Virus record (IMG/VR): IMGVR_UViG_3300034521_000317
Coordinates: 1-23,908 of that record
From: a virus
Length of the DNA stretch: 23,908 bases
Direction: 5' to 3' (one strand)
Shown here: piece after piece, positions 5,926 through 21,039 of the stretch
Layout: every line of letters starts with the position of its first letter
Position numbering within the stretch: the stretch's first letter is position 1
Translations under genes and position numbers: made by a program
The notes under the pieces: model-generated
The model's input: the letters and a program-made list of their open reading frames with translations, nothing else
What the model was told of the DNA's origin: nothing
The model's database searches: none

Positions 5926-6408
5926 ATGGGAAAAAGATCCAAGCCCCAATACGAGAAAGAGTTGTCTCCGGAGGTCATTGCGGTCCTGCGGGACGTGGCG
6001 CCAGACTATCTCGAGGAGTACGACGACCTTGACGAGGAAACCAAGGAATGGCTTCGGGAACGTGATCCAGAACGCATCCGTCAGGTCTTAAGTTATGCTA
6101 ATGACATTTGGGACCGGATTGAGCGTGGAGAAGACATTCCGGTGCCGCATTGGAATCCCGACCCGGACAGTCCGATGATGACCCGGCTGTGGGAGATCGC
6201 CAAGGCGGCGGAGGCGGACGATCGGCCGATCGAGGAGATTCAACGGTTTGTCGAGGAGTACAACCGGAAGGCGGCCGAGGAGGGAAAACTCTTAACGGAC
6301 GATGTCTGGGAAGGGATTACCGGGGCGTGGCTTTTGATTCCTGCTGGTGGACCGGACGAGGCGGAAGAGGATGAAGAGGGGTCCGACGCTGAAGGAACAG
6401 GGGAGTAG
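5926..6408 (+). CDS. Acidic small protein of unknown function behind the portal
   Basis: The 160-residue protein starts two bases after the portal stop codon. It is strongly acidic, helical and ends in an almost pure Glu/Asp/Gly tail (EAEEDEEGSDAEGTGE). The middle has a proline-rich turn (VPHWNPDPDSP) and repeated helices (PERIRQVLSYANDIWDRIERG). No signal peptide or membrane segment is seen. I do not recognise a family. Tight coupling to the portal suggests a partner of the head, perhaps of the portal's extra C-terminal region, whose basic end contrasts with this acidic protein. A toxin-immunity-like relation is only a guess. It is the last gene before a terminator-like hairpin. Confidence 0.75.
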   Translation: MGKRSKPQYEKELSPEVIAVLRDVAPDYLEEYDDLDEETKEWLRERDPERIRQVLSYANDIWDRIERGEDIPVPHWNPDPDSPMMTRLWEIAKAAEADDRPIEEIQRFVEEYNRKAAEEGKLLTDDVWEGITGAWLLIPAGGPDEAEEDEEGSDAEGTGE

Positions 6409-6474
6409 GAGAGTAGTGCTATCGGGCCAGCCGCCGGTTGTTTCTGGTCTTTACCCCCCCGAAATGAGGCCGAC

Positions 6475-6507
6475 AAAAATCGACACGTATGCAGTCGTGT
6501 CGATTTC
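6475..6507 (+). terminator. Terminator-like hairpin after the head operon
   Basis: AAATCGACACG at 6477-6487 pairs perfectly with CGTGTCGATTT at 6496-6506 around an 8-base loop. An A-run precedes and a short T-run follows, so it could stop transcription in either direction. The T-run is short, so the efficiency is unsure. It lies 67 bases after the last head gene. Confidence 0.6.
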
Positions 6508-6702
6508 TGGCTGATCCTCGCTACCTAGTCGTAAGAGTGCTTCAAACCGATACTTGGGACTGGTAAGCGACTTTCGTCCAGGTTCGACACCGAAAACGCC
6601 CGCGAAACCTCTTTCAAGGAAACTTTTTCCAAAAGGGGGGTAGGTCCAAGCGTCGTTTTTCAGCCGTTTGCTGGGGGATTGGCGGAGGGAATGTCCGGAC
6701 AA

Positions 6703-6750
6703 TTTGCTTCGCTTTTGCTGACGGTTTGCTTCGATTTTGCTTAAGCAAAA
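6703..6750. repeat. Near-identical 17-bp direct repeats ending in a 16-bp palindrome
   Basis: TTTGCTTCGCTTTTGCT (6703-6719) recurs with one change at 6725-6741. The second copy runs into the perfect palindrome TTTTGCTTAAGCAAAA at 6735-6750. Direct repeats with a palindrome at this scale are typical of protein binding sites. No function can be assigned. Confidence 0.6.
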
Positions 6751-6823
6751 GCGAAAGGACCCCGCGCCTATCCTCTCGGCAAGGTCTGGCCCCTGATTCA
6801 AGACTTGAAGCCTTCCGGCCAGC

Positions 6824-6903
6824 TCCGGCGAACCTCCGGCGAAATCTTTTTTGGGCGGTATTTCCCGAGAATAATGGCCCTTTCTTCTTCCGGCGAACCT
6901 CCG
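6824..6903. repeat. Exact 15-bp direct repeat, spacing 65
   Basis: TCCGGCGAACCTCCG occurs at 6824-6838 and again at 6889-6903. The copies are exact. No gene covers them. Confidence 0.6.
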
Positions 6904-7034
6904 TTGACAATACGGATTCCGAGTTCATGCTCTTGAAGCCCGTGGCCTACGCCCCCGCCGTTGCGGCAAAGGCTGGTCGGAAGATTAACGATCTCCAGTC
7001 CGTCTCTGCGCCCGTCAAGCAATTCTTGTCTCAG

Positions 7035-7055
7035 TGTCCACTGTCCACTGTCCAG
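7035..7055 (+). repeat. Heptamer repeat TGTCCAC, three units
   Basis: TGTCCAC, TGTCCAC, TGTCCAG lie head to tail. Further GTGGACA pieces on the opposite strand follow within 90 bases (around 7067, 7080 and 7153). This is a second heptamer array in a non-coding gap, with a unit different from the one at 1474. Confidence 0.65.
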
Positions 7056-7187
7056 ATACGAATTTGTGGACAGTCTGGCGTGGACATCGTTGCATAAGTG
7101 ATTTTCAATTCCCAACTTAGTCACTCTTCTTGCATTGCCGTGGGGCGTTTTTGTGGACATTTGGCTAATATAGGCAAAAATCTTCCG

Positions 7188-7284
7188 GGTTATCAGCCGG
7201 TTATCACTTGGCTCTCGGCACCCCGTGGAAAAGGCCGCATAACACCCGCTGGTTGATCCGCCTGGTTATCAGGATTGGTTATCA
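7188..7284 (+). promoter_or_regulatory. Four GGTTATCA boxes, likely activator or repressor sites
   Basis: Exact copies start at 7188, 7199, 7264 and 7277, as two pairs spaced 11 and 13 bases, i.e. about one helical turn each. Measured from the predicted start of transcription near 7329, the downstream pair lies at about -65 and -52. That suits a class of activators that help a promoter lacking a good -35 box. Binding by a phage late activator is inference. Confidence 0.5.
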
Positions 7285-7316
7285 CTTTTTGTCCCAGAAC
7301 CCGTTTCATGGGCCGC

Positions 7317-7329
7317 TATAATCGGCGGT
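7317..7329 (+). promoter_or_regulatory. TATAAT box for a leaderless tail-operon transcript
   Basis: A perfect TATAAT at 7317-7322 ends seven bases before the ATG at 7330, so transcription would begin at 7329-7330 and leave no 5' leader. No Shine-Dalgarno site fits and no TTGACA-like -35 hexamer is found 16-18 bases upstream. Confidence 0.5.
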
Positions 7330-8904
7330 ATGAACCTCTACACGACGGGCGATGACAGCGGTCTTTTCTCTCTCTTGGGCAAGCTGTTTGCCCTGTCGCG
7401 GAGTCTCGACACGGCCCGCGGTGGGACGGTGCAGACGAAGCTCGCGGCCCTTCAGGCGGTTCTTGACCTTTGTCCCGAGGCCGATCCGGTCCTCTCCGCC
7501 GAGACGAGCTGGGAATCGGCGGGCGGGAGCCTGCAAAACCAGATCACCACAGTCGCCCAAAAGCTGATCCGCCGCTACATCCTGGAAAAGGGCCTTTCCT
7601 ATCGGACACTGGCCGAGGCCCTCCAGCAGATCCGTTCGGACCTGGTGACGGGCGGCTATTATTTCACCAGTTCCACCCAGAGCTCGACAGTCACGCCGGC
7701 CTCCGGCAACCAGGGGGATCTCCTCCTGGCGGTGGATCTGAAGAATGCCCGCGGTGAGGCGGCCTGGTGCTATCCCGAGACCTGGCAGGTGGTGGCCGGG
7801 GAGCGGGGCCTGACGGTCACCGGGCAACCCGTTAAGGCCCGCACGGACCGGAATTGGCCGGGAGGCTCGGGGATCTACGTGACGGTCTTGACTCAATCGG
7901 TGGACCAATCCCGTTTGCAGAATGCGGGCTTCGAAACGCTCGCCGCCACGGACCACCCCCAGGGCTGGACGATCCATACCGGGACGCCCGGCCAAACGAT
8001 CCGAGTGACCAGCCCGGAAGTCCAACAAATCACACTAACCGGCAATCCCACCGGCGGTTATTTCATCCTCACCTGGACCGATCCCTCCAGTCGGACCTGG
8101 CAAACCGCCCAGATCGGTTACAATCCGACGGCGGCGGAGATCCAGACCGCCCTCCGTGCGATCCCGGGGCTGGAGGCCGTCACGGTCAGCGGGACCAATC
8201 CCTGGACGGTGACCTTTGAAGGAACGCCGGGCGATATCAACCAACTGGGCGTGATCAACCGCTTGACGGGCGGGACGAGTCCCGAGGTGAGCGTCATTAC
8301 GACGCAATCTGGGGACGTGCTTTCTTATCGCGGGCGGAGCCTCAAGCTGGTGGGCAACGGCAGTGAGCAAACGCTCCTTTACCAATCGGTGGAGCTGCAA
8401 GCCGACCGGCCGTATTTCCTGTTTGCCAGGATGCGGAAAACGGCCTCGGCCACCGGCGAAATCCGCTTCGAGCTCCGCCGTTCGGTGAGTGAATCGGCCC
8501 TCAGTGATTCGGCCGGGACGGTCAACCGGGTGAGCGTGAACCTGACGAGTGTTTCCTCCAGCTCCCATACGGGTGTCAGCGGCGTGTTTCGCTTGCCGGT
8601 TGACTACAGCGGCCCCGTGACCTTCGTCATCCAGGCCTCGACGGCCATCAATAGCGGTGAGGCGGTGGGAATCGATGAACTGGTGTTGGTAGACGGGACG
8701 CGGCTCTATAACGGCGGTCCCTGGCTGGCCGCGGCCTCCGGCTGGAAATCGTTCCTCAACGATCGCTGGACGGTCTCGATCACGAACGACCTAGCCGGGG
8801 TCTGGCAGACAACGCTGGCCCGTTTTCTCCGCTGGTACGAGTTGGTGGACCGGCCCCCGCCCACGACTGGCTCCACCCTGATTCCGGATAGTCTCTTGAG
8901 TTAG
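7330..8904 (+). CDS. Structural protein with jelly-roll-like domain split by an inserted repeat domain
   Basis: The 524-residue protein opens a new operon. Residues 1-110 are helical (LQAVLDLCPEADPVLS, LIRRYILEKG). From ~192 the pattern NAGFE...GWTIHTGTPG, resumed at ~330 as RGRSLKLVGNGSEQTLLYQSVELQADRPYFLFARM, is that of a CBM-like beta-sandwich. Between the halves (about 228-327) sits a domain beginning VQQITLTGNPTGGYFILTW and containing YNPTAAEIQTALRAIPG and WTVTFEGT. This is a repeat known from many phage tail and planctomycete surface proteins. So a carbohydrate-binding-like fold seems to carry an insertion. It probably belongs to the virion surface, possibly the tail or a capsid fibre. 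A start at 7330 follows from the TATAAT placement. The exact role is unknown. Confidence 0.7.
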   Translation: MNLYTTGDDSGLFSLLGKLFALSRSLDTARGGTVQTKLAALQAVLDLCPEADPVLSAETSWESAGGSLQNQITTVAQKLIRRYILEKGLSYRTLAEALQQIRSDLVTGGYYFTSSTQSSTVTPASGNQGDLLLAVDLKNARGEAAWCYPETWQVVAGERGLTVTGQPVKARTDRNWPGGSGIYVTVLTQSVDQSRLQNAGFETLAATDHPQGWTIHTGTPGQTIRVTSPEVQQITLTGNPTGGYFILTWTDPSSRTWQTAQIGYNPTAAEIQTALRAIPGLEAVTVSGTNPWTVTFEGTPGDINQLGVINRLTGGTSPEVSVITTQSGDVLSYRGRSLKLVGNGSEQTLLYQSVELQADRPYFLFARMRKTASATGEIRFELRRSVSESALSDSAGTVNRVSVNLTSVSSSSHTGVSGVFRLPVDYSGPVTFVIQASTAINSGEAVGIDELVLVDGTRLYNGGPWLAAASGWKSFLNDRWTVSITNDLAGVWQTTLARFLRWYELVDRPPPTTGSTLIPDSLLS

Positions 8905-8923
8905 TGAAGCAAGGAGAGATGCC

Positions 8924-9067
8924 ATGGCACTCTGGGGATCGAGTGAACCTGTGACGACGACGAGCACCTTACCGCCGGAGGGAACGACGCCAGAACCCCT
9001 CCCGCCGGAGATGCCCGAGAAGACCACGACGTCGAGGGAACCTGCTGAGGATGAGGAGGCGGCATGA
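8924..9067 (+). CDS. 47-residue Thr/Pro/Glu-rich small protein
   Basis: A short gene with AAGGAGA seven bases before its ATG. Its stop overlaps the next start in an ATGA (9064-9067). The protein begins MALWGSSEPVTTTST and is almost wholly Thr, Pro and Glu, ending in DEEAA. It resembles the mucin-like linkers of the large fibre protein encoded downstream and has no globular part. The strong ribosome site and the coupled overlap argue it is real. It may be a minor virion component or a spacer peptide whose translation feeds the chaperone gene. Confidence 0.7.
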   Translation: MALWGSSEPVTTTSTLPPEGTTPEPLPPEMPEKTTTSREPAEDEEAA

Positions 9068-9432
9068 TCTGGCCCTTTCGCAGACGGAAGCTCCTGTTTC
9101 GCTATTTCGATGGCGAGAACTGGGTGGCGGCGGACCCGCTGCCGATCTACCGACGGTTGCGGAGCGAGGCGGACCGCCTGGTGGTCCTGGCCGCGGCCTG
9201 GGATGAGCAGCGGCACCCCGAGGCCAGTGAGTTCATCCAGCTCGTCGCGGAGATCTTTCACCTGAAGGGCTTTGATCCTGAGACAGAAAAGGGGCTCACT
9301 GAGACGGAGGTCGTCCATGTCTTTGCCGATTTCGACCTCTTTTTGAAGGAGGTGCGGGAGCGTTTTTTTCCTGGATTGACCTTATCGGAATCTGGGGCTG
9401 GGAGGTCCTCCGCTGCGGCGGCCCGCAACTGA
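9064..9432 (+). CDS. Tail assembly chaperone, short form (G-like)
   Basis: The 122-residue zero-frame product lies directly before the tape measure gene, the place of lambda gpG-type chaperones. It is helical and acidic, begins MIWPFRRRKLLFRYFDG, and ends soon after a run of seven T at 9363-9369. After that point its zero-frame tail is a low-complexity GAGRSSAAAARN, typical of a non-selected end. GAGGAGG precedes the start. The protein would bind the tape measure during tail assembly. Confidence 0.7.
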   Translation: MIWPFRRRKLLFRYFDGENWVAADPLPIYRRLRSEADRLVVLAAAWDEQRHPEASEFIQLVAEIFHLKGFDPETEKGLTETEVVHVFADFDLFLKEVRERFFPGLTLSESGAGRSSAAAARN

Positions 9433-9659
9433 GCGATCCGGGCTGGCCGCTGGCCCTGGAGCTGATGCGGGATCACCGCCTCTGGCAGCTGGCCTGGCCG
9501 GTCTGCCGGGGCGTGGGGATGGCCATGGGCCAGATCCCCCAGGCGGCCTTCCTGGCCCTCCTGGCCGATGAGGAGCAGGCCCAGCTGGAGGCCGAGCGGC
9601 TGGAGGCCTACCGGAGACTCGAGCGGATGAACCGAAACGGGATTGGCGATGTTGAGTGA
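9064..9659 (+). CDS. Tail assembly chaperone, -1 frameshift form (GT-like)
   Basis: Slipping back one base at the T-run (last zero-frame codon 9367-9369, next codon starting at 9369) joins the first 102 residues to a second open frame that runs to 9659, giving about 198 residues. The added part (SWIDLIGIWGWEVLRCGG...) is protein-like and includes a helical C-terminus (LLADEEQAQLEAERLEAYRRLERM). It has no start codon of its own with a ribosome site near the junction. Its stop overlaps the tape measure start by eleven bases. This is the conserved frameshift layout of long-tailed phages. Confidence 0.75.
9363..9369 (+). promoter_or_regulatory. Slippery heptamer T TTT TTT for -1 frameshifting
   Basis: Seven T residues are placed in the X XXY YYZ phase relative to the zero frame (cgT TTT TTT cct). 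Both A- and P-site tRNAs can re-pair fully after a -1 slip. Downstream only a small GGAG/CTCC hairpin about 30 bases away is visible, so a strong stimulator is not evident. Confidence 0.75.
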
Positions 9660-11217
9660 ATTTGCCCAGATCGTCGAGGAGATTGTCCGCGGGGCGGAGG
9701 CCCTCGAGAAGGCCCTGACGCAGGGTCGGGAGCGGCTCAGCCAGATCGCCCACGGTCTGCAGACGCAACCGGCCGTCAGTCCGCTCCTCTCCGATCCGCG
9801 GATCCTTCCCCAGGGTCGGGAGCGGCTCAGCCAGATCGCCCACGGTCTGCAGACGCAACCGGCCGTCAGTCCGGTCCTCTTCGATCCGCGGATCCTTCCC
9901 CAGGGCCGGGAGCAGCCCCTGGCCTCCTCGACCGTGGTCAATCTCGATGTCCTGCAGGAGGTCAATGCCCGGGCCCTGACGCGGGCCCTCCAGGGGACGC
10001 GGCCCCCAGCCACACACGAGGCGATCTCGGGCGGGCAGGAGAAACGTCTCCTGGGACAGCTGGAGAAACTCACACCTTCGGCCGAGACGATTGTCCGGCA
10101 GCTCGTCGAGCAGCGGAGACGGCCGGAAGGGCGGGTGGAGGGGCTTAGTCGACGGACCGTACACGAGGCGATCTCGGGCGGGCAGGAGAAACGTCTCCTG
10201 GGACAGCTGGAGAAACTCACACCTTCGGCCGAGACGATTGCCCGGCAGCTCGTCGAGCAGCGGAGACGGCCGGAAGGGCGGGTGGAGGGGCTTAGTCGAC
10301 GGACCGTGAGGGGGCGGGGAGCTGTGCGGGTTACAGGCCCAAGGCGGCGGGCCTCAGGATTGGCGGGGCGGCTCCAGGACCTCCTCTGGACCCGTCGCGG
10401 GCGGGTCTGGCGGTGGCGGCTGGAGCGGAGTCGTTCGCCGCTCCGGCAGTACGTCGGGCGGTCTCTGACGCAGTTTGCCGAGCGGGGAAGCACACGTCAG
10501 CTCTTTGCCAGTCTGCGGAGGGCCCCGGTGGCGATGCGGGGCCCGCAGGCCATCCAGACTGCCCAAGCTGCAGGGATCAGCCAGGGGACGCTGGCCCGCG
10601 GGGCGGCCTTCGTGGGGATGATCGGTCAGGTCGGTGGGGCCCTGGCCCGGCTGGCCGCGGTCCTTACCGGGCCAGTGGGGGCGGCCCTGGCCCTGGTCAC
10701 GGCCCTGGCCTCAGCCACGGTGGCCCTTGTGCGGTGGGCAAGGGGCCTTGAGGACTCCGTCTTTGCCATCCAGCGGACGGCCGAGTCCTTCACGCGGGTC
10801 CATTCCGGGATGGCCGGCCTGGCCGCCCAGCTGGAGGCCGCCCGCCTCCAGGAGCAGCGGCGGGTCGCCGAGGGGACCTACCTCACGACCCGGCTCTACG
10901 CCGCGATGGCTGAACGCTACCGGCGGGGGGGAGAAGATCTCCGAATCCTGGGGACCAACCTGGCCAACCTGGGACGAACCGCCGGGCTGGCCGCCGGCGA
11001 GATGATCAAAGTCGCCACCGGGTTGAAGTTGCTGGAACGTTCGGCGGGCTGGCTCAACAGGCAGCTGGAATGGGGCCTGAACAAACTGGGGGTGGAGAAA
11101 GGCAAGGGCCCTCAAGACTGGTGGTTCGACCGCATGCAGCGGTTCCGCGACGTGCAGATCGATATTCCACAGCGGCAGAAGCCACCTGAGCTCTTCAACA
11201 AGCGTCCGAAGAAATGA
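9649..11217 (+). CDS. Tape measure protein (short)
   Basis: The protein has 522 residues, helical and rich in Gln, Arg, Ala and Leu, as tape measures are. It carries two tandem in-frame duplications near the N-terminus (30 and 49 residues). A hydrophobic stretch lies in the C-terminal half (GAAFVGMIGQVGGALARLAAVLTGPVGAALALVTALAS at about bases 10600-10730), typical of the membrane-active zone. The ATG at 9649 overlaps the end of the frameshifted chaperone. The upstream TTG at 9643 is less likely. At about 0.15 nm per residue (known rule for tape measures) the tail would be near 78 nm. The stop overlaps the next start as ATGA. No lytic domain is seen. Confidence 0.75.
   Translation: MLSEFAQIVEEIVRGAEALEKALTQGRERLSQIAHGLQTQPAVSPLLSDPRILPQGRERLSQIAHGLQTQPAVSPVLFDPRILPQGREQPLASSTVVNLDVLQEVNARALTRALQGTRPPATHEAISGGQEKRLLGQLEKLTPSAETIVRQLVEQRRRPEGRVEGLSRRTVHEAISGGQEKRLLGQLEKLTPSAETIARQLVEQRRRPEGRVEGLSRRTVRGRGAVRVTGPRRRASGLAGRLQDLLWTRRGRVWRWRLERSRSPLRQYVGRSLTQFAERGSTRQLFASLRRAPVAMRGPQAIQTAQAAGISQGTLARGAAFVGMIGQVGGALARLAAVLTGPVGAALALVTALASATVALVRWARGLEDSVFAIQRTAESFTRVHSGMAGLAAQLEAARLQEQRRVAEGTYLTTRLYAAMAERYRRGGEDLRILGTNLANLGRTAGLAAGEMIKVATGLKLLERSAGWLNRQLEWGLNKLGVEKGKGPQDWWFDRMQRFRDVQIDIPQRQKPPELFNKRPKK
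9721..9900 (+). repeat. 90-bp tandem duplication within the tape measure gene
   Basis: Two copies (9721-9810 and 9811-9900) differ at two bases. A third copy begins at 9901 (CAGGGCCGGGAGCAG) and then diverges. Each copy encodes a 30-residue unit starting QGRERLSQIAHG. Confidence 0.95.
10015..10308 (+). repeat. 147-bp tandem duplication within the tape measure gene
   Basis: Two copies (10015-10161 and 10162-10308) differ at only two bases: ATTGTCC versus ATTGCCC, and the last base. Each encodes a 49-residue unit starting HEAISGGQEKRLLGQ. The near-identity indicates a recent event. Confidence 0.95.
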
Positions 11218-13115: not shown

Positions 13116-13600
13116 GCCGCGTCGATACAAAACCCTCCGACATCCTGAGCTGGATCCTGCAGCTCCTCCGCAGTGGGCTGGAGATGCCCGCCGAGGCCTG
13201 TTTCCTGGCCTCGGATGACCTGGCCCCGGCCCGCATCCCGCCGCATCCCACGTTTTGCGTCGTCAGCCCCCTGGCCGGACAGTTTGTCGTCGAAGAGCAA
13301 ACCCCGGGCAATCTCTGCGAGCGCTGGGGCTTCCGGGTGCGGCTCTTCATGCGCCTCAGCCGCGATCGACCAGGACAAGATGATGTCCGCCTCACCGACC
13401 CTGACGACGGGGCCTTTGCCTGGAAAAGGAAGATTCTGTCCGCCCTGGTAGGAAAGGATTATGCGGGCTGGAATCTCCGCGGCACGGTCGCTGCCACAAA
13501 TGCCACGCCCCTGGTCTGGCTCCGGGGCAACCGCGGGGAGATCGAATACGCAAGTTTTGCCCTAGACTTCCTGATTGAATTCGATTGGAGCCTGGCGTGA
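13112..13600 (+). CDS. Small tail protein, tail-terminator-like
   Basis: The 162-residue product starts at the ATG at 13112, which has GAGGAG just upstream and overlaps the previous stop. A longer reading from 13013 would lie inside the upstream gene. The protein has an N-terminal helix (ILSWILQLLRSGLEMPAEACF), then strands around FCVVSPLAGQFVVEEQ, a central FRVRLFMRLS strand and a C-terminal ASFALDFLIEFDWSL strand. This mixed fold and size fit the tail terminator or a similar small ring protein, usually about 130-170 residues. The position after the large tail gene is not the classic one, so a different minor tail role is possible. Confidence 0.45.
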   Translation: MSRVDTKPSDILSWILQLLRSGLEMPAEACFLASDDLAPARIPPHPTFCVVSPLAGQFVVEEQTPGNLCERWGFRVRLFMRLSRDRPGQDDVRLTDPDDGAFAWKRKILSALVGKDYAGWNLRGTVAATNATPLVWLRGNRGEIEYASFALDFLIEFDWSLA

Positions 13601-16600
13601 GCGAACCCCTATCTGCCCCCGAGTTGATGCTTCAGTTGGATGGCGAGCCCTTCGCCATCCTAGCGGCCGATCGGGCGACTCGCCGCTGGTTCCGCCGCTA
13701 CTGGCCACCCGGGAGGTGGCCCTACACGGCCCCGCCCAATGCGCCTTTTGCGCCTTCCACACTCTGGCTGGGTGATACCAAGGCTGTGCCACTAGGGGGC
13801 TGGTCCAGTTTTCGCTGGGCCGATACCCTGCCACGGGAATATCATCTAAATTGGATGTGGTGCCCCAGTGGCGGGACCCGCTTCATGATCGGGCTCTTCC
13901 TCATCGACTCCCGCCGGGCCCGGGCCATTTATCAAGCTCTGGAAACTCAGACCTGGTTTGAACTTACGACTTGGACCAGTGATCCGCGAAACGATCAGGC
14001 GGGCATTCGCAGCCTGGCCGTCCGGCCCTTGGACATGATCCCGATTGCGGCCACCGAGGGGTTGCGCTCGACGACCACGACACCACCGCGGGAAGAGCTT
14101 TATCTGCTAGTCCTGACCGATCCGCGATTCTTCGCCCAATTCGTCTATCTTCCGATGGAGCCCCGCAGCTGGGTCCAAGTCATCGAGGCCCTGGAGCGGG
14201 ATTTGAATTGCGAGATCTGGTTCGATACTCCGGCCCTGGAGGAGCCGACTCGCTGGAGCGAACTCCCGCAGGAGGTCCTGAAAACTCTGCCCGATATCCA
14301 GCAGGGGATCGAGGCGACCACCACGACCACGATGCGGGTGTGCACGACATCGAGCTCCACCACCTCCACGAGCTCGACGACCTCCACCTCCACCAGCACC
14401 AGCACGACTTCCACGACGACCACTCTGCCGCCGATCCTGCCTGACCCCGAGGCCTGGAAGACACCCGGCCAACCCGCGACAGTGATCCTGGATGCCCTAG
14501 CGGCTAGCCTCGGGATGGTCGTCAGCCCCTTCATCCGGCTGATGGACGATCACGAGCGTTTTATCGTGATCTTCTCCAATCGGCCTTATGCCCTGGAGCA
14601 GGGCTTTGAAATCGATGTCGTTTCCGGCGACTCCGACTTGGTGCGCGATACCATTCCGCGGGCCCGCCGGGTGATCTTGGCAACGCCGCAGTGTACCAAG
14701 AAGAAGTACACCAGCGTCAGGCTTTTCGAGCAGGATACGGGCGTGGGCCGCGGGCAACGCTGGTACCAGAATACTGCCTGCAACATCTCCGAGCTCTGCG
14801 GGCAGGCTATCATCCAGCGGATCCGCGCCTTGAGCGAAGTCGTGGCCCCGGCACGATTAGCGCATGCCGCCATCGCCCCCGGATCATTCAATATCCTGCA
14901 ACGAAAAGCCTACTCCGATATCGATGCGGTGGAGTATCACTTCGGCCCGCAGCCCATCATTTATCTCTCCGCCCATCATACGGCCGTCGAACCCGCGACT
15001 TATGCTCTGACTTGCCGGGGCGAGGGGAGCGCCACAACCACCACCCCCTCACCATACGCGTGGGGAACTGGCAACTGCGAACCCTGCACCTGCACCTGGC
15101 GCTGTGAAGACGGGACGGCGGAAATCGTCTATGCGACCTGCCCCGACGGATGCCAGTGCGCCCCGCAGCCTCAGCGGTGCAGCCCCGGCGACTCCTGGGA
15201 GATCAGCGTCCCCTGCGTCACGACCACAACCCCACCCTGCAGCGGGAGCTGCCAGTGGGCGTGGGACGAGGAGAACCGGGCCTGGACCCTAAGCACAGAG
15301 GATTGCGCAGAAGGCTGTCAGTGCATCCCCCCGCAGTTCTGCGGTGGGGGCGACTGCCTCTCCGCCTCCACCGATTGCGTCCGCTCAGACTATGGACTCC
15401 CGACACCCGATTGCCGCGGGACATCGAGCACGACGACCACGGCCCCGGGATCAACGACCCCCTGCCCCTATCCCCCCGGGCACCCCTGCTGCCCCGAGAC
15501 GTGGACCTCGACCACGACCACCCGCGACTGCTGCTGCGGGACAGGCTGCAAAGGTTGCCAGTGGAAGGCGGTCCTGGGCTGGGGCGGGACCCTCGGCTGG
15601 GGCCTGGTCGCCCGCGACTGCTGCCCCGAATGCCCCTGCCCCTACCCGGACCGGGAGCCCCGCGACCAGTGCGACCTCTACCATACCAACTGCGGCCAAC
15701 GCCCAGCGCCAACCCCCACGACGTGTCCACCCTGCACCGGTGGCTGCGAGTGGATCTGGTCGCTCGACTGGAACCGCTGGATTAAGACCAAGGACACCTG
15801 CACCGAACGCTGGCGGGTGGGACGCCTCTGCCCCTGCAAAACTGGGGACCAGGAGGCCGAATGCCTCAGCTGCGTCTGTGATCCACCTTCTCAGCCCCCG
15901 AGCAATCCGGATTGCTCGCGCATTGCCTACACCTCCTGCCATTGCATTTGCGAGACAACGACGACCTGGCCCTATCCCTGCCCGCCGCCATCTCAACCGC
16001 CGCCCCCGACAACGACGAGTCTGGGCTGCGGGAGCCCCTGTATCATGACCTGGGATGGGTCTTCCTGGAACGGCGGAAATTGCCCTCCCGAATGCCCTTG
16101 CGCGGCCCCGCCTTTTCCCGGGACGCAAGCCGGAGAGTGCCGGCAATCCCTATGCCGCGGGGCGCCGCCCACGAGCACGACAACCACTATCACCCCCACG
16201 ACCACCTCCAGCACCACGAGCTCCAGCACGAGCTCCACGAGCTCCACCACGACGACTAGACCATGCGCCGGGTATTGCCTTTACGCCGTGATTGATTCGG
16301 CGGTCCAGATCATCTCGAATACTTGCCCGGCGGACTGCGCCTGTTCTCCCCCTCCCTGCTATCCGATGCAGCCCGGCCATACTGTTGCCGTCCCCTGCCT
16401 AAGTCCGTCCGAGGCCGCCACGACCACCACCTGCGGCCCCTGCACAGGCCAGTGCGAAGTTTATCCGGACGGGCGGATATTGCGGCAACAATGCAGCAGC
16501 GGCTGCAAGTGCGCGCCGATCCCTTGCGAATCCTTGGGCATCATGCCCCAGAATGACACATTCACGATCGGTTGTATTCCGCAAACCCAAACCACCACGT

Positions 16601-17823
16601 CTTGCGCCTGTATAGGGATGTGTTATTATGAGGTTACAAGCGATTACGCAGGCCGGATATCGATTAGCTCAAAGGGCAACACCTGTGCCACAGGAGCGTC
16701 GGGCCCGGCTTGTGGCTGTCCTGTCGTATGTCCCGAGGATTTTCCCGCGCCAGGCTTCTATGTCGTTGGCTGCACGAGCGATCAATCGAAATTCTCACGG
16801 ATATGCCCATGCACCGGACACTGTGAATGGCGTGGACAATTTGTTAACTTGTCTGGAGGAGAACCAACTGGCATTTGGAATTTGGCATTTTCAGACTGCA
16901 GCGAGAACTGTCCGAATTGCCGGGCGCCCGACTACCCGCCTAGCGCCAGTGGGCAAATCGCATACACGGATTGCGTGAGGACATTATCCCAGTTAGACCT
17001 AATGGCCCGAATGCCGTGCAGTGGCGAATGTACGTGGCAGTGGGATGCCTGGGATCGTGTCTGGCGCCTCACAAAAAGTTGCGCTCAAGGCTGCCTGTGC
17101 GTTCCGCCAAATGGGCCGGGCCCTATTTGGGATGAGGAACAGCAAATCTGGACTGATATGGTGGTGTCCCGGTGTATCGACCAACCACCGCCACCGCCGC
17201 CACCGCCGCCGACGACCACAACTACGACAAGCACGACCACCACCGCGGCGCCGACTACCAGCACCAGCACAACAACCACCCAAGCCCCGACGACCACGAC
17301 GACGAGCACGACCACCACCGCGGCGCCGACTACCAGCACCAGCACAACAACCACCCAAGCCCCGACGACCACGACGACGAGCACGACCACAACCGGCATA
17401 CCGACGACTACAACGGGGCAGCCATCCTGTGATGGAGATTGCACTTGGTGGTGGAGCGATCAAGAGCAGACATGGAACCTCATAGATGCAGGATGCTCAG
17501 AGGGTTGCGAGTGCCCACCGCCGCCCGAAGGGATCGGCGCATTCCACGGAGCTTATGCTGCTTTGGCATGCCTGCCTGCGACGACCACCACGACGAGCAC
17601 AACGTCAACGACCACCACCTCCACGCCCACAAGTACGAGCAGCAGCACGACCACGACACTTCATTGCAGTAGCTGCCAGTGTGTCTGGCAGTGGGACGAT
17701 GAATACGGCTGGATGCCCTATTATGACTGCACCTACGAGGGATGCAGCTCGTCCTGCGTCTGCGATAGCCCCCCACGATCCGGCTCGTATCAGGGAGAAA
17801 TTTACTATGTCCAGTGTCGTTAG
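13597..17823 (+). CDS. Giant tail hub/fibre protein with mucin-like Thr linkers and cysteine-rich modules
   Basis: The 1408-residue protein starts at a GTG overlapping the previous stop (GTGA). Residues ~1-480 look like a hub-type structural domain (VILDALAASLGMVVSPFIRL, FIVIFSNRPYALEQGFEIDV), itself interrupted by a Thr/Ser run at about 243-276. From ~490 to the end come about twelve cysteine-rich modules of the form C-x3-C-x-W-x-W ... C-x2-GC-x-C-x-P-P ... C. They are joined by Thr/Ser/Pro linkers (TTTTSTTTTAAP). No signal peptide is seen. Modules are diverse, so most arose long ago, but one linker holds a perfect 75-bp tandem repeat. The disulfide-rich modules and Thr linkers point to an extended, exposed receptor-binding fibre. 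Assembly in the cytoplasm would leave cysteines reduced, so disulfides would form only after release, or the clusters bind metal. Confidence 0.75.
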   Translation: MSEPLSAPELMLQLDGEPFAILAADRATRRWFRRYWPPGRWPYTAPPNAPFAPSTLWLGDTKAVPLGGWSSFRWADTLPREYHLNWMWCPSGGTRFMIGLFLIDSRRARAIYQALETQTWFELTTWTSDPRNDQAGIRSLAVRPLDMIPIAATEGLRSTTTTPPREELYLLVLTDPRFFAQFVYLPMEPRSWVQVIEALERDLNCEIWFDTPALEEPTRWSELPQEVLKTLPDIQQGIEATTTTTMRVCTTSSSTTSTSSTTSTSTSTSTTSTTTTLPPILPDPEAWKTPGQPATVILDALAASLGMVVSPFIRLMDDHERFIVIFSNRPYALEQGFEIDVVSGDSDLVRDTIPRARRVILATPQCTKKKYTSVRLFEQDTGVGRGQRWYQNTACNISELCGQAIIQRIRALSEVVAPARLAHAAIAPGSFNILQRKAYSDIDAVEYHFGPQPIIYLSAHHTAVEPATYALTCRGEGSATTTTPSPYAWGTGNCEPCTCTWRCEDGTAEIVYATCPDGCQCAPQPQRCSPGDSWEISVPCVTTTTPPCSGSCQWAWDEENRAWTLSTEDCAEGCQCIPPQFCGGGDCLSASTDCVRSDYGLPTPDCRGTSSTTTTAPGSTTPCPYPPGHPCCPETWTSTTTTRDCCCGTGCKGCQWKAVLGWGGTLGWGLVARDCCPECPCPYPDREPRDQCDLYHTNCGQRPAPTPTTCPPCTGGCEWIWSLDWNRWIKTKDTCTERWRVGRLCPCKTGDQEAECLSCVCDPPSQPPSNPDCSRIAYTSCHCICETTTTWPYPCPPPSQPPPPTTTSLGCGSPCIMTWDGSSWNGGNCPPECPCAAPPFPGTQAGECRQSLCRGAPPTSTTTTITPTTTSSTTSSSTSSTSSTTTTRPCAGYCLYAVIDSAVQIISNTCPADCACSPPPCYPMQPGHTVAVPCLSPSEAATTTTCGPCTGQCEVYPDGRILRQQCSSGCKCAPIPCESLGIMPQNDTFTIGCIPQTQTTTSCACIGMCYYEVTSDYAGRISISSKGNTCATGASGPACGCPVVCPEDFPAPGFYVVGCTSDQSKFSRICPCTGHCEWRGQFVNLSGGEPTGIWNLAFSDCSENCPNCRAPDYPPSASGQIAYTDCVRTLSQLDLMARMPCSGECTWQWDAWDRVWRLTKSCAQGCLCVPPNGPGPIWDEEQQIWTDMVVSRCIDQPPPPPPPPPTTTTTTSTTTTAAPTTSTSTTTTQAPTTTTTSTTTTAAPTTSTSTTTTQAPTTTTTSTTTTGIPTTTTGQPSCDGDCTWWWSDQEQTWNLIDAGCSEGCECPPPPEGIGAFHGAYAALACLPATTTTTSTTSTTTTSTPTSTSSSTTTTLHCSSCQCVWQWDDEYGWMPYYDCTYEGCSSSCVCDSPPRSGSYQGEIYYVQCR
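15073..17820 (+). repeat. Twelve six-cysteine modules in the fibre protein
   Basis: Protein-level repeats begin at roughly bases 15074, 15238, 15529, 15725, 16024, 16263, 16432, 16603, 16806, 17017, 17428 and 17665. Clearest copies read CSGSCQWAWDEENRAW, CSGECTWQWDAWDRVW and CDGDCTWWWSDQEQTW, each followed by a GCxCxPP segment and a closing Cys about 20 residues later. Spacing is variable and the DNA is not conserved, so these are old protein repeats. I cannot name a family. Confidence 0.75.
17230..17391 (+). repeat. Perfect 75-bp tandem repeat in a Thr linker
   Basis: Two identical 75-base units (17230-17304 and 17305-17379) and the start of a third encode a 25-residue unit rich in Thr (STTTTAAPTTSTSTTTTQAP). 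The absence of any difference points to very recent expansion. Confidence 0.9.
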
Positions 17824-17843: not shown

Positions 17844-19616
17844 ATGAAGCTCACGATCGGCATGGCGACCTATGCGGACTTCGACGGCGTCTACTTCACC
17901 GTCCAGTCCCTTCTGGTCCATCACCAGGAGGCCCTCCAGGACTGCGAGATCCTGATTGTCGATAATGCCCCGCACCTGCCCGTGGCCCAGACACTCCAGG
18001 GCTATTGCCGCTCCGTCTCGCTTCCGGAACGCCCCGTCCATTACGTCCCCTTCGGCCAGGCCGTCGGGACCAGCCCGGCCCGGGACGCCATTTTCCATCA
18101 TGCCAGCGGGGAATATGTCTTAGTGTTGGATTGCCACGTTCTGCTAGCCCTCGGCAGCATCAAGAGGCTGCGGGAATACCTGGAGGCCCATCACCCCTGC
18201 GATGACCTCCTCCAGGGGGTCCTCATCTCGGATGACGGGAGCCACGTCTGGACACACTTCCAGGATGTCTGGCGGGCCGAGATGTGGGGAATTTGGGGCA
18301 GTGACCCCCGCGGCCGAGACCCCCACGGGGAGCCCTTCCCGATCTTCGCCCAGGGACTGGGGCTCTTCGCCGCCCGCCGCGAGAGCTGGCTCGGCTTCCA
18401 CCCCCTGGCCCGCGGCTTCGGCGGAGAAGAATGCTACATCCACGAGAAATACCGCCAGGCTGGCCGCCAGTGCCTCTGCCTCCCTGCCGTCCGCTGGGTC
18501 CACCGCTTCGCCCGCCCCAATGGCGTCCCCTATCCCCTGACCCAGTGGAACAAGGTCCGCAACTATGTCCTGGAACTCCGCGAACTGGGACTGCCCCTCG
18601 ACCGGCTCCACCGCCACTTCGTGGAGGGCCTGGGTGAGGACCCGGGGGATGGGTCACCTCCCCAGGGGGCCCTCACGCGGATGAGCCAGGAGGACTGGGA
18701 CTACCTCGTGGCCGACCCCGAAAAACACCTGAACCCACCGGCCCGCCAAAAGGCCGGCTGCGGGGGCTGCGGGGCCACCAAGATTGAATCCATCGAGGAC
18801 TGGCTGGACTGGCAAAAGAAAAACGACCCGGACTTGGGCGGGCATCTTTCGCGGCTGCAAGAATTGGCCCAGGGGGCCAAATTGGTCGTGCAGCTAGGCC
18901 TCGGCCGGGGCGGGGCCACCGCCGCCTTTTTGGCCGCCCATCCCAAGCGGCTCGTATCCGTCGATGGCGCGCCTCCATCGTGGTTCGATTCCCTGCGGCA
19001 GTTGGCCGCGGCTGATTGGGAATTCCTGCTCGGCGATACCTTGCAAGTGGACCTGCCATCCGAACCCATCGATGTCTTGTTCATCGACACAAAGCACACT
19101 GCCGCTCAGTGCTACGCCGAACTGACCCGCTACGCCCCGCTGGTCCAGGGTCGGATCGTTCTCCACGACACCACAACCTTCGGCGAACGGGGCGAAGATG
19201 GCGGCCCGGGACTCCTCCCCGCCCTCCGCCGCTTCCTCAAAGAACATCCTGAATGGATCGTGTATAAGCATTTCGAGGACTGGAACGGACTGACGATCAT
19301 TTCCAATCTGCCGGAGGACCGACCGAAACTCCCCTCCACCGCCCGGCAGATCTTCAATTTCGCCCGGGCCGCCATCCACCATTACCGCGATGGGGCACGA
19401 TGGGTCGATGAGGCCACCCTGCAACACCGGCTCGATCTCTGCGCCCTCTGCGAACACCGCAGCGAGAACCGCTGCTCGATCTGCGGCTGCTACCTGATCG
19501 ATGCCCCGACGGGGCAAGGCGGAAAGGCCGAATGGGCAGACCAAGCCTGTCCGCTAGGGAAGTGGCTCCCCGTGGAACCGGCCCCCGAACCTACTGCTAC
19601 GGATAATGAATCATGA
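17844..19616 (+). CDS. Glycosyltransferase-methyltransferase-zinc-knuckle fusion protein
   Basis: The 590-residue protein joins three parts. Residues 1-~250 form a GT-A glycosyltransferase: a start MKLTIGMATYADFDG, a D-x-H metal motif (DCH, 96-98, inside VLVLDCHVLL) and GFGGEECYIHEKYRQAG at 191-207. The D-x-H and GGEE features recall polypeptide GalNAc transferases (GT27), though the match is loose. Residues ~340-490 form a class I methyltransferase of the Methyltransf_24 type, with VVQLGLGRGG (348-357), FIDTKH (413-418) and a HDT (441-443). The C-terminal ~60 residues hold Cys at 533, 536, 544, 547, 549 and 569 (CALC...CSICGC...ACPLGKW), a zinc-knuckle. A strong GAGGAGGT site precedes the ATG. 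It follows the fibre gene by 20 bases, so it probably modifies the fibre. Confidence 0.8.
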   Translation: MKLTIGMATYADFDGVYFTVQSLLVHHQEALQDCEILIVDNAPHLPVAQTLQGYCRSVSLPERPVHYVPFGQAVGTSPARDAIFHHASGEYVLVLDCHVLLALGSIKRLREYLEAHHPCDDLLQGVLISDDGSHVWTHFQDVWRAEMWGIWGSDPRGRDPHGEPFPIFAQGLGLFAARRESWLGFHPLARGFGGEECYIHEKYRQAGRQCLCLPAVRWVHRFARPNGVPYPLTQWNKVRNYVLELRELGLPLDRLHRHFVEGLGEDPGDGSPPQGALTRMSQEDWDYLVADPEKHLNPPARQKAGCGGCGATKIESIEDWLDWQKKNDPDLGGHLSRLQELAQGAKLVVQLGLGRGGATAAFLAAHPKRLVSVDGAPPSWFDSLRQLAAADWEFLLGDTLQVDLPSEPIDVLFIDTKHTAAQCYAELTRYAPLVQGRIVLHDTTTFGERGEDGGPGLLPALRRFLKEHPEWIVYKHFEDWNGLTIISNLPEDRPKLPSTARQIFNFARAAIHHYRDGARWVDEATLQHRLDLCALCEHRSENRCSICGCYLIDAPTGQGGKAEWADQACPLGKWLPVEPAPEPTATDNES

Positions 19617-20359
19617 GCAATGGCATGATTGCGGCCCTGTGCCCGACTTTTCGACGGCCCGGGTTGACTGGCAACGCCGCGGCCTGTTTCCTCGCCCAAC
19701 GCTGCGAGCTCCCGCGGCGGATGCTGATTTGGGAGGATGGCGGGGCCCTTGAGGCGGCGACCATCGGCAGTATCCAAATCGTCACTTCGCGGCGATTTCC
19801 CGATCTGGGCTCCAAATACAATGCTCTGGCCGAGCGAGCCATCGAACTCTGGGACCCGGATTATCTGGCGATCTGGGAGGACGACGACATTTATCTCACC
19901 TGGCACCTGGAGACCTCCATTGTGGCCATGATTCAGAGCGGGGCCCTATGGGCTAAGCCCTCCCGGGTCTGGAGCCTCTACACCGGGCGGCTGGAGGAAG
20001 AACCGGCCGCCGGGCGGTTCCACGGCTCCCTCGTCCTCACCCGCCGGGCCTGGGAACAGGTCCCCTGGCCCACCCACGGGCGGGCTGACTTCGACCAGGA
20101 GTTCATGCGACATCTGCAGGAAGAATGCGGCCCGCCGGCCGATCCCCTCCTCATCGAGCCCCGCCCAGGCTACATCTTCCGCTACGGCTCAACCCGCTCC
20201 TACCACGCCCAGCACTTCATGCGGGGGACGGCCGATATAACCTGGTACGAGACTGTCGCGGAGCACGTGCCAGAACTCCCGTCGGCGGAACTGCGCATCG
20301 CGTTCGACGACGAGACTGCGGCAATTCTCGGAGTCGTGAGAGGCGAGTATGACGGCTGA
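19613..20359 (+). CDS. GT-A family glycosyltransferase
   Basis: The 248-residue protein starts in an ATGA overlap with the fusion gene. It has an N-terminal Rossmann-like start (MIAALCPTFRRPGLTGNAAACF) and a D-x-D-type motif EDDD at 89-92 in LAIWEDDDIYL, which normally holds the metal and sugar nucleotide. A later GRADFDQEFMRHL segment fits the acceptor-side helix. It is smaller than average for GT2 enzymes. Donor and acceptor cannot be told from the sequence. Coupled translation makes it a partner of the neighbouring transferases. Confidence 0.75.
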   Translation: MSNGMIAALCPTFRRPGLTGNAAACFLAQRCELPRRMLIWEDGGALEAATIGSIQIVTSRRFPDLGSKYNALAERAIELWDPDYLAIWEDDDIYLTWHLETSIVAMIQSGALWAKPSRVWSLYTGRLEEEPAAGRFHGSLVLTRRAWEQVPWPTHGRADFDQEFMRHLQEECGPPADPLLIEPRPGYIFRYGSTRSYHAQHFMRGTADITWYETVAEHVPELPSAELRIAFDDETAAILGVVRGEYDG

Positions 20360-20600
20360 AGAACTCAAGGATGCAATCGTCCGCTCGCTGATCTATAACC
20401 GGCTGACGTATGAAGGCCGCTTGTTATATGAGGAAAAGAGGGGTCTTAGCGATGGATATCCTGCACATCATCACTCCGGTATCTCGGCCGCAGAATCTCA
20501 CCGCCCTGGCCTTATCACTGCGGGGCCTCTTGAGTATTCCCTGGCGCTGGTGGGTCATCTTCGACCGCAACGTCGCCGATCTGCCAGCCCGGCCGCCTGA
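20349..20600 (+). CDS. Possible small protein overlapping two glycosyltransferases
   Basis: The start ATG overlaps the end of the previous gene and has an AGAGGCGAG site. The first ~33 residues (MTAEELKDAIVRSLIYNRLTYEGRLLYEE) look like a genuine helix. Beyond that the frame overlaps the next transferase by ~150 bases and becomes low-quality (RRRSASPAA). It could be a real small gene with a junk tail, or a remnant N-terminus displaced by a frameshift. Confidence 0.35.
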   Translation: MTAEELKDAIVRSLIYNRLTYEGRLLYEEKRGLSDGYPAHHHSGISAAESHRPGLITAGPLEYSLALVGHLRPQRRRSASPAA

Positions 20601-21039
20601 TTTGCCCCTGGCTCACTGGGATTATGGCCAAGAATCCGATTCTGTGGCGGGCTATAGCCTCCGCAACGAATGCCTGGAAAAAATCGATTCAGGCTGGATT
20701 TATTTCCTCGATGACGACAACCTGATCCACCCCCATTTGGAAATCGTCTTCCTGCTGACCCGCCGCTCATTTCCCGCGGCCCAATGGTTCATATTTCGCC
20801 AGATTCGGCCTGATGGGACCATCTATTTGCGGCCCCAAGTCCCGCCCCGCGTGAACGCCGTGGACATCGGGCAGTGTGTCCTACGGCGGGACCTGATGAA
20901 AAACACGGGAGATCCCGTCCCGCCCTGGAGCTTTGAGCATCGCCCCGATGCCGATGGGCTGCTGTACGAGCAATTGAGCCGGGATGTAGCACCGATCGCG
21001 CTCGACCTCGAGGCGACCTATTACAATGCCCTCAGATAA
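20452..21039 (+). CDS. Small GT-A glycosyltransferase
   Basis: From the ATG at 20452 the protein has 195 residues. It starts with MDILHIITPVSRPQN, a typical first strand of a GT-A fold, and carries WIYFLDDDNLIHPH, whose DDD (87-89) is the metal-binding D-x-D. A possible start at 20410 adds MKAACYMRKRG, which lacks a ribosome site and does not resemble the family, so I prefer 20452, with GAGGGG ahead of it. At 195 residues it is short for a complete enzyme. It may depend on the neighbours or transfer to a simple acceptor. It ends the modification cassette. Confidence 0.7.
   Translation: MDILHIITPVSRPQNLTALALSLRGLLSIPWRWWVIFDRNVADLPARPPDLPLAHWDYGQESDSVAGYSLRNECLEKIDSGWIYFLDDDNLIHPHLEIVFLLTRRSFPAAQWFIFRQIRPDGTIYLRPQVPPRVNAVDIGQCVLRRDLMKNTGDPVPPWSFEHRPDADGLLYEQLSRDVAPIALDLEATYYNALR

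Follow-up and report, generated by a model that had tools for sequence, protein, structure and literature searches.

A phage tail protein composed of disulfide-stabilized beads on mucin-like linkers, O-glycosylated by a cassette that the phage itself encodes, is the reading that probably best describes the DNA analyzed here. The window, which is the whole of the 23,908-bp IMG/VR record G000, is viral, and the last gene of its tail block encodes twelve six-cysteine modules separated by Thr-rich linkers. Directly after that gene comes one for an enzyme that resembles the polypeptide GalNAc-transferases.

A tail protein with six-cysteine modules

Within the window, the module ORF comes after genes for a Mu-type portal, a major head protein, a tape measure and a distal tail protein (assigned with Pfam and PHROGs), and is the last gene in this tailed-phage tail block. 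Its putative GTG start overlaps the stop of the preceding gene. The features of the protein are as follows; modules 1 to 10 and 12 are taken from the twelve-module alignment.

13585..17823, + strand: module-bearing tail protein, an ORF of 1,412 aa with likely start GTG 13597; colinear ortholog in a Thermogutta MAG (L031)
13597..15060, + strand: N-terminal domain, a putative virion domain of ~490 aa, kept in L031; L008 and L032 can be aligned with it by eye
15076..15216, + strand: module 1, a variant with an extra Cys
15238..15378, + strand: module 2, CSGSCQWAW...GCQCIPP
15547..15693, + strand: module 3
15733..15939, + strand: module 4, containing a Cys loop insertion
16027..16155, + strand: module 5
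16264..16398, + strand: module 6
16441..16575, + strand: module 7
16609..16773, + strand: module 8
16810..16974, + strand: module 9
17017..17175, + strand: module 10
17182..17424, + strand: longest mucin-like linker, between modules 10 and 11; P9, then TTTTTTSTTTTAAPTT... repeats
17428..17571, + strand: module 11, modeled with AlphaFold (pLDDT 95.7); missing from the Thermogutta ortholog
about 17578-17661, + strand: second long linker, between modules 11 and 12; Thr-rich
17665..17817, + strand: module 12

The original prediction placed twelve copies of a module at 15073-17820. These copies are real and occupy 15076-17817 on the + strand, with Thr-rich linkers between them, and one further Thr/Ser-rich insert lies inside the N-terminal domain at about 14320-14425. 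Six cysteines, arranged as C-x(2-3)-C ... C-x(3, longer in some)-C-x(1-2)-C ... C, are invariant in 12/12 modules, and the predicted wide variation in spacing is correct, with modules ranging from 43 to 69 residues. The shared motifs C-x3-C-x-W-x-W and GCxCxPP had been attributed to every copy; here the cysteines held up, but the strict W-x-W and GCxCxPP were overstated and are better regarded as a consensus than as a rule. By regular expression, four modules (M2, M4, M10 and M11) have C-x(2-3)-C-x-W-x-W, which M12 narrowly misses; about three (M2, M10 and M11) have GCxCxPP. An HMM of the family matches the window ORF with an E value of 9e-57, and matched none of 500 residue-shuffled copies of that ORF.

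A profile made from all 12 modules proved too diverse for scanning sequence collections. Short window-derived profiles, run against IMG/VR and GTDB genomes as a version of the search originally suggested, revealed the family on about 28 distinct phage or prophage contigs, including relatives in Planctomycetota genomes, and thereby bore out a guess that planctomycetes would harbor them. Hosts with a name comprise three Planctomycetota MAGs (Thermogutta, Planctomyces and Planctomycetaceae), along with one Chloroflexota MAG in which the match lies on a short contig that may be misbinned; the virus of the window is read as one that infects heat-loving planctomycetes. Module matches occurred in 2/392 of a sample of Planctomycetota genomes, a lower bound, as scoring was limited to the top 17 candidates of each genome. 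A tblastn search of 50,697 annotated phage records with the window protein, a relative and two glycosyltransferase domains gave no match, nor did a search of plasmids with a relative.

Among the roughly 28 contigs, the arrays reach 12 modules and nearly always have Thr-rich linkers, and 109 of the 115 complete modules across loci retain all six cysteines. The Thermogutta protein is colinear with that of the window apart from module 11; between the two, 97/97 alignable Cys and 25/27 Trp are kept, while the remaining residues are 48% identical. The N-terminal domain, compared by eye, varies among subgroups of the module proteins, and the module array therefore looks like a mobile C-terminal display part.

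Several loci depart from this plan. In L008 the module protein, a single ORF in the window, is divided between two genes (5985-8912 and 8909-11023) that overlap by ATGA. The modules of L024 (5412-8192) sit on Ser/Pro-rich linkers with no Thr runs, and L043 (planctomycete genome G328, contig 1) has variant modules lacking the second cysteine, followed once more by the glycosyltransferase; its PSSSSS linkers mix Ser runs with TTTAGP repeats. A different repeated Cys motif, GSCCxxxGxCSDGxTEAECxAxxxGTW, lies beside six-cysteine modules in the C-terminal part of L021 7527-10457. An upstream ORF in L009 (628-2025) appears by eye to join serine-protease-like and thioredoxin-like (CSPC) parts, the latter possibly relevant to thiol chemistry. 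Finally, a longer IMG/VR contig near-identical to the window, G001 (IMGVR_UViG_3300034759_000283; 34,517 bp), carries the same 127 bp as a direct repeat at its two termini, as expected of a complete genome, and this 34.5-kb contig looks like one; an ORF spanning its terminal repeat resembles a papain-like peptidase by eye.

Fold and cysteine chemistry of the modules

Profile searches of Pfam, PHROGs, NCBIfam and the PDB with the module sequences yielded nothing significant. An AlphaFold2 model of module 11, based on 63 homologs, is a three-stranded structure of 49 residues with a pLDDT of 95.7. This model had no match below E 0.001 in PDB or BFVD by Foldseek, and the best VIA score was a Z of 2.8 to an unrelated chain; both methods are weak for folds of 49 residues, and missing matches to so small a predicted structure do not prove a new fold. 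The claim that the family is of unclear origin was not overturned by these searches: a known Cys-rich domain was sought both by sequence and by Foldseek and none was found. None of the libraries searched contains this protein family, whose fold is confidently predicted.

Perhaps the modules are a known small Cys-rich carbohydrate-binding or inhibitor fold, such as a knottin or a CBM1- or CBM10-like domain, that has diverged past detection. The C-x3-C-x-C half of the module does weakly resemble a squash trypsin inhibitor (E 0.18), and a row of disulfide-rich beads with aromatic residues, carried on glycosylated Thr linkers, recalls fungal CBM1 arrays. The structural searches, for what they can say at this size, returned nothing, and we give such an ancestry a fairly low probability. 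A different question is raised by the cytoplasm in which the protein is made. The original prediction found disulfide-rich modules odd in a bacterial cytoplasm, and a zinc-finger-like module that binds metal would fold in that reducing compartment. The C-x3-C and C-x-C spacings are compatible with metal binding, and a single family member weakly matches a zinc-ribbon Pfam entry (E 0.068). However, there is no significant match to a Pfam metal-binding family, no conserved His appears in the module alignments, and six fully kept cysteines without conserved His or Asp suit three disulfides better. Moreover, extra cysteines at profile positions 10 and 37 are gained together (8/8, p 3e-8), and the module model is beta-rich and confident without a metal. 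Metal binding is accordingly quite improbable. Disulfides are therefore favored as the best fit to these alignments: the cysteines are completely conserved, no His is, and the extra Cys at 10 and 37 arise together.

The puzzle of cytoplasmic disulfides is in this way softened, although not solved. A virion protein can oxidize after release. The pairing of the cysteines, which the original prediction had proposed to check, gave a divided answer: the 10-37 pair covaries, but the general parity test was negative, with 42/83 modules having an odd number of extra cysteines. Given that the counts are not biased toward even numbers, some of the cysteines, if they form disulfides, must pair outside their modules or stay free. 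The corresponding co-loss test had too few exceptions to be useful (6 of 115 complete modules lack the full six).

A linked GalNAc-transferase-like enzyme and its candidate acceptors

Three glycosyltransferase-like genes follow the tail protein. The first of them and the Thr-rich linkers, neither of which the original prediction mentioned, are the most telling features of the locus.

17844..19616, + strand: polypeptide GalNAc-transferase-like glycosyltransferase, with a GT-A domain (residues 1-300), a methyltransferase-24-like domain and a Cys-rich, zinc-ribbon-like C-terminal end
19613..20359, + strand: second glycosyltransferase-like gene, with the motif CPTFRRP...WEDDDIYL; relatives have weak Pfam GT2 matches
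20410..21039, + strand: third glycosyltransferase-like gene, with an FLDDDN motif and a weak match to PHROG 14775 (glycosyltransferase; E 0.082)

The glycosyltransferase (GT) model of the first enzyme has a pLDDT of 93.5, and all 50 of its best 50 Foldseek matches in the PDB are polypeptide GalNAc-transferases. By VIA, it aligns with GalNAc-T2 at a Z of 24.3 (rmsd 2.7 over 253 residues), and the next family is represented by the E. coli K4 chondroitin polymerase at a Z of 18.9. Among 18 relatives, D96-x-H98 and G194-E195-E196 are invariant and H220 is over 90% conserved; in GALNT7 and GALNT10 the aligned counterparts of this DxH, GGE and downstream His are the motifs DSH, GGEN and VGH. Pfam and NCBIfam scans revealed no ricin-type lectin domain in the enzyme, and the methyltransferase-like domain (Methyltransf_24-like, E 2.8e-5) occupies that place, followed by the Cys-rich end, which matches PHROG 13558 (function unknown). 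Genes like the second one also come after the first enzyme in five relatives (L031, L016, L023, L032 and L028), and the recurrence of additional glycosyltransferase-like genes downstream, in the window and in its relatives, suggests a glycan cassette.

The association between enzyme and tail protein was approached from both directions. A homolog of the enzyme lies downstream in 19/20 module loci with enough sequence, mostly as the adjacent gene, and about 1.2 kb further downstream in L016 and L017. The only informative module locus without a GalNAc-T-like gene nearby, L024, is the one with Ser/Pro linkers. Viral loci picked solely for a long Thr-type run had a homolog in 0/80 cases, 62 of these loci being 5 kb or longer. 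When the enzyme was used as the query, at least 555 matching stretches were found in IMG/VR, and an ORF with repeated Thr/Ser runs lay upstream in 32/45 of the distinct GT loci that have upstream DNA, and downstream in 3/49 (p 2e-11). Most of these adjacent Thr/Ser-run proteins lack cysteine modules, and on this sequence evidence the enzyme therefore appears to track the Thr/Ser-run proteins rather than the modules.

The linkers themselves have a corresponding signature. The window protein contains 26 Thr runs, and its repeated Thr/Ser/Pro-rich tracts are mucin-like, by composition, as candidate O-glycan acceptors. When the residues after each run of three or more Thr were counted, Pro stood at +3 in 192/328 contexts (59%) in the module proteins, with depletion at +2, +4 and +5, and in 68/145 (47%) in module-free Thr/Ser-run proteins adjacent to the GT gene. 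A weaker excess at +3 (40/154, 26%), with a similar value at +2 (21%), is also present among control phage Thr runs that have no enzyme of this kind in the vicinity. Fisher tests against these controls give p values of 2e-11 for the module proteins and 2e-4 for the GT-adjacent proteins without modules; the contexts are related by descent, and the p values overstate their independence. The residues at +1 and +2 vary (PAP, AAP, ADP, GEP, AGP, CDP, LAP), which would argue that the position of the Pro itself is conserved. GalNAc-transferase acceptors are preferred with Pro at +1 and +3 (PMC9950641, PMC5716993).

Could the linkers instead be plain, unmodified spacers, with the enzyme acting elsewhere, for example on a host surface glycan in serotype conversion or superinfection exclusion? 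In phages the end of the tail block is a frequent site for cargo genes, host polysaccharides are the targets of many phage glycosyltransferases, and under the criterion applied 18/80 GT loci lack an upstream Thr/Ser-run ORF. The adjacency of enzyme and modules could indeed be due in part to both genes lying at the end of the tail operon, a slot for cargo. Nonetheless, the closest folds are GalNAc-transferases that modify polypeptides rather than polysaccharides, T-x-x-P is more enriched in the GT-linked proteins than in control Thr runs, and the enzyme keeps company with Thr/Ser-run proteins even where there are no cysteine modules. We therefore judge the unmodified-spacer alternative to be unlikely, and return to glycosylation of the linkers as the favored reading.

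Proposed role and comparison with known systems

In the model that we favor, the array would be the outer portion of a tail-tip or fiber protein of the phage, in which small, disulfide-stabilized and probably adhesive beads are strung on rigid, mucin-like Thr-rich linkers. Before this protein leaves the host cytoplasm, the GalNAc-transferase-like enzyme of the next gene would start a glycan on linker threonines with GalNAc or a related HexNAc, and the later glycosyltransferase-like genes and the fused methyltransferase would extend and cap that glycan. The glycans would stiffen and hydrate the linkers and shield them from proteases, and the stiff linkers would hold the beads away from the virion for binding to the host surface. 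The cysteines would oxidize after lysis at the latest.

Protein O-glycosylation of the mucin type is for the most part regarded as eukaryotic. A broader proposal, which we put forward tentatively and with somewhat less than even confidence, is that phages of uncultured bacteria, including Planctomycetota, possess every part of a mucin-type O-glycosylation system (a polypeptide GalNAc-transferase, glycosyltransferases for elongation and a methyltransferase) that is dedicated to their own Thr-rich virion proteins and displays a six-cysteine bead not described before, and that the phage enzymes may be near the ancestor of the eukaryotic mucin-initiating enzymes. No phage mucin-type system was found in the literature searched, which covered few subscription journals and no preprints. 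If true, the proposal would provide a bacterial-virus version of mucins from a large phage family, a simple cytoplasmic tool for protein O-glycosylation, and a test of the origin of the eukaryotic enzymes.

The phage enzyme shares with the GT27 polypeptide GalNAc-transferases the GT-A fold, the DxH metal motif, the GGE(N/E) sugar-site motif and the downstream His, and nearby Thr-rich T-x-x-P candidate acceptors. Unlike the animal enzymes, it is presumably cytoplasmic and is fused to a methyltransferase-like domain; the ricin-type lectin domain is missing and identity to them is only about 15-19%, so that its donor and acceptor may differ from theirs. Animal mucins likewise alternate Cys-rich domains with Thr-rich tracts ending in Pro, but the modules of the window are far smaller and belong to a bacterial virus, and no homology was detected. 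The CBM1 of fungal cellulases, a small, disulfide-rich aromatic module, sits on an O-glycosylated Ser/Thr linker that is also rich in Pro. This is an analogy of working only: the window has twelve tandem modules in a phage protein, with no sequence or structural match found to CBM1. A parallel in setting is the reported glycosylation of mycobacteriophage virions by phage glycosyltransferases, whose genes also lie near structural genes and have presumed virion targets; compared with those systems as described, the GalNAc-T-like enzyme here is paired with Thr-rich linkers and six-cysteine beads.
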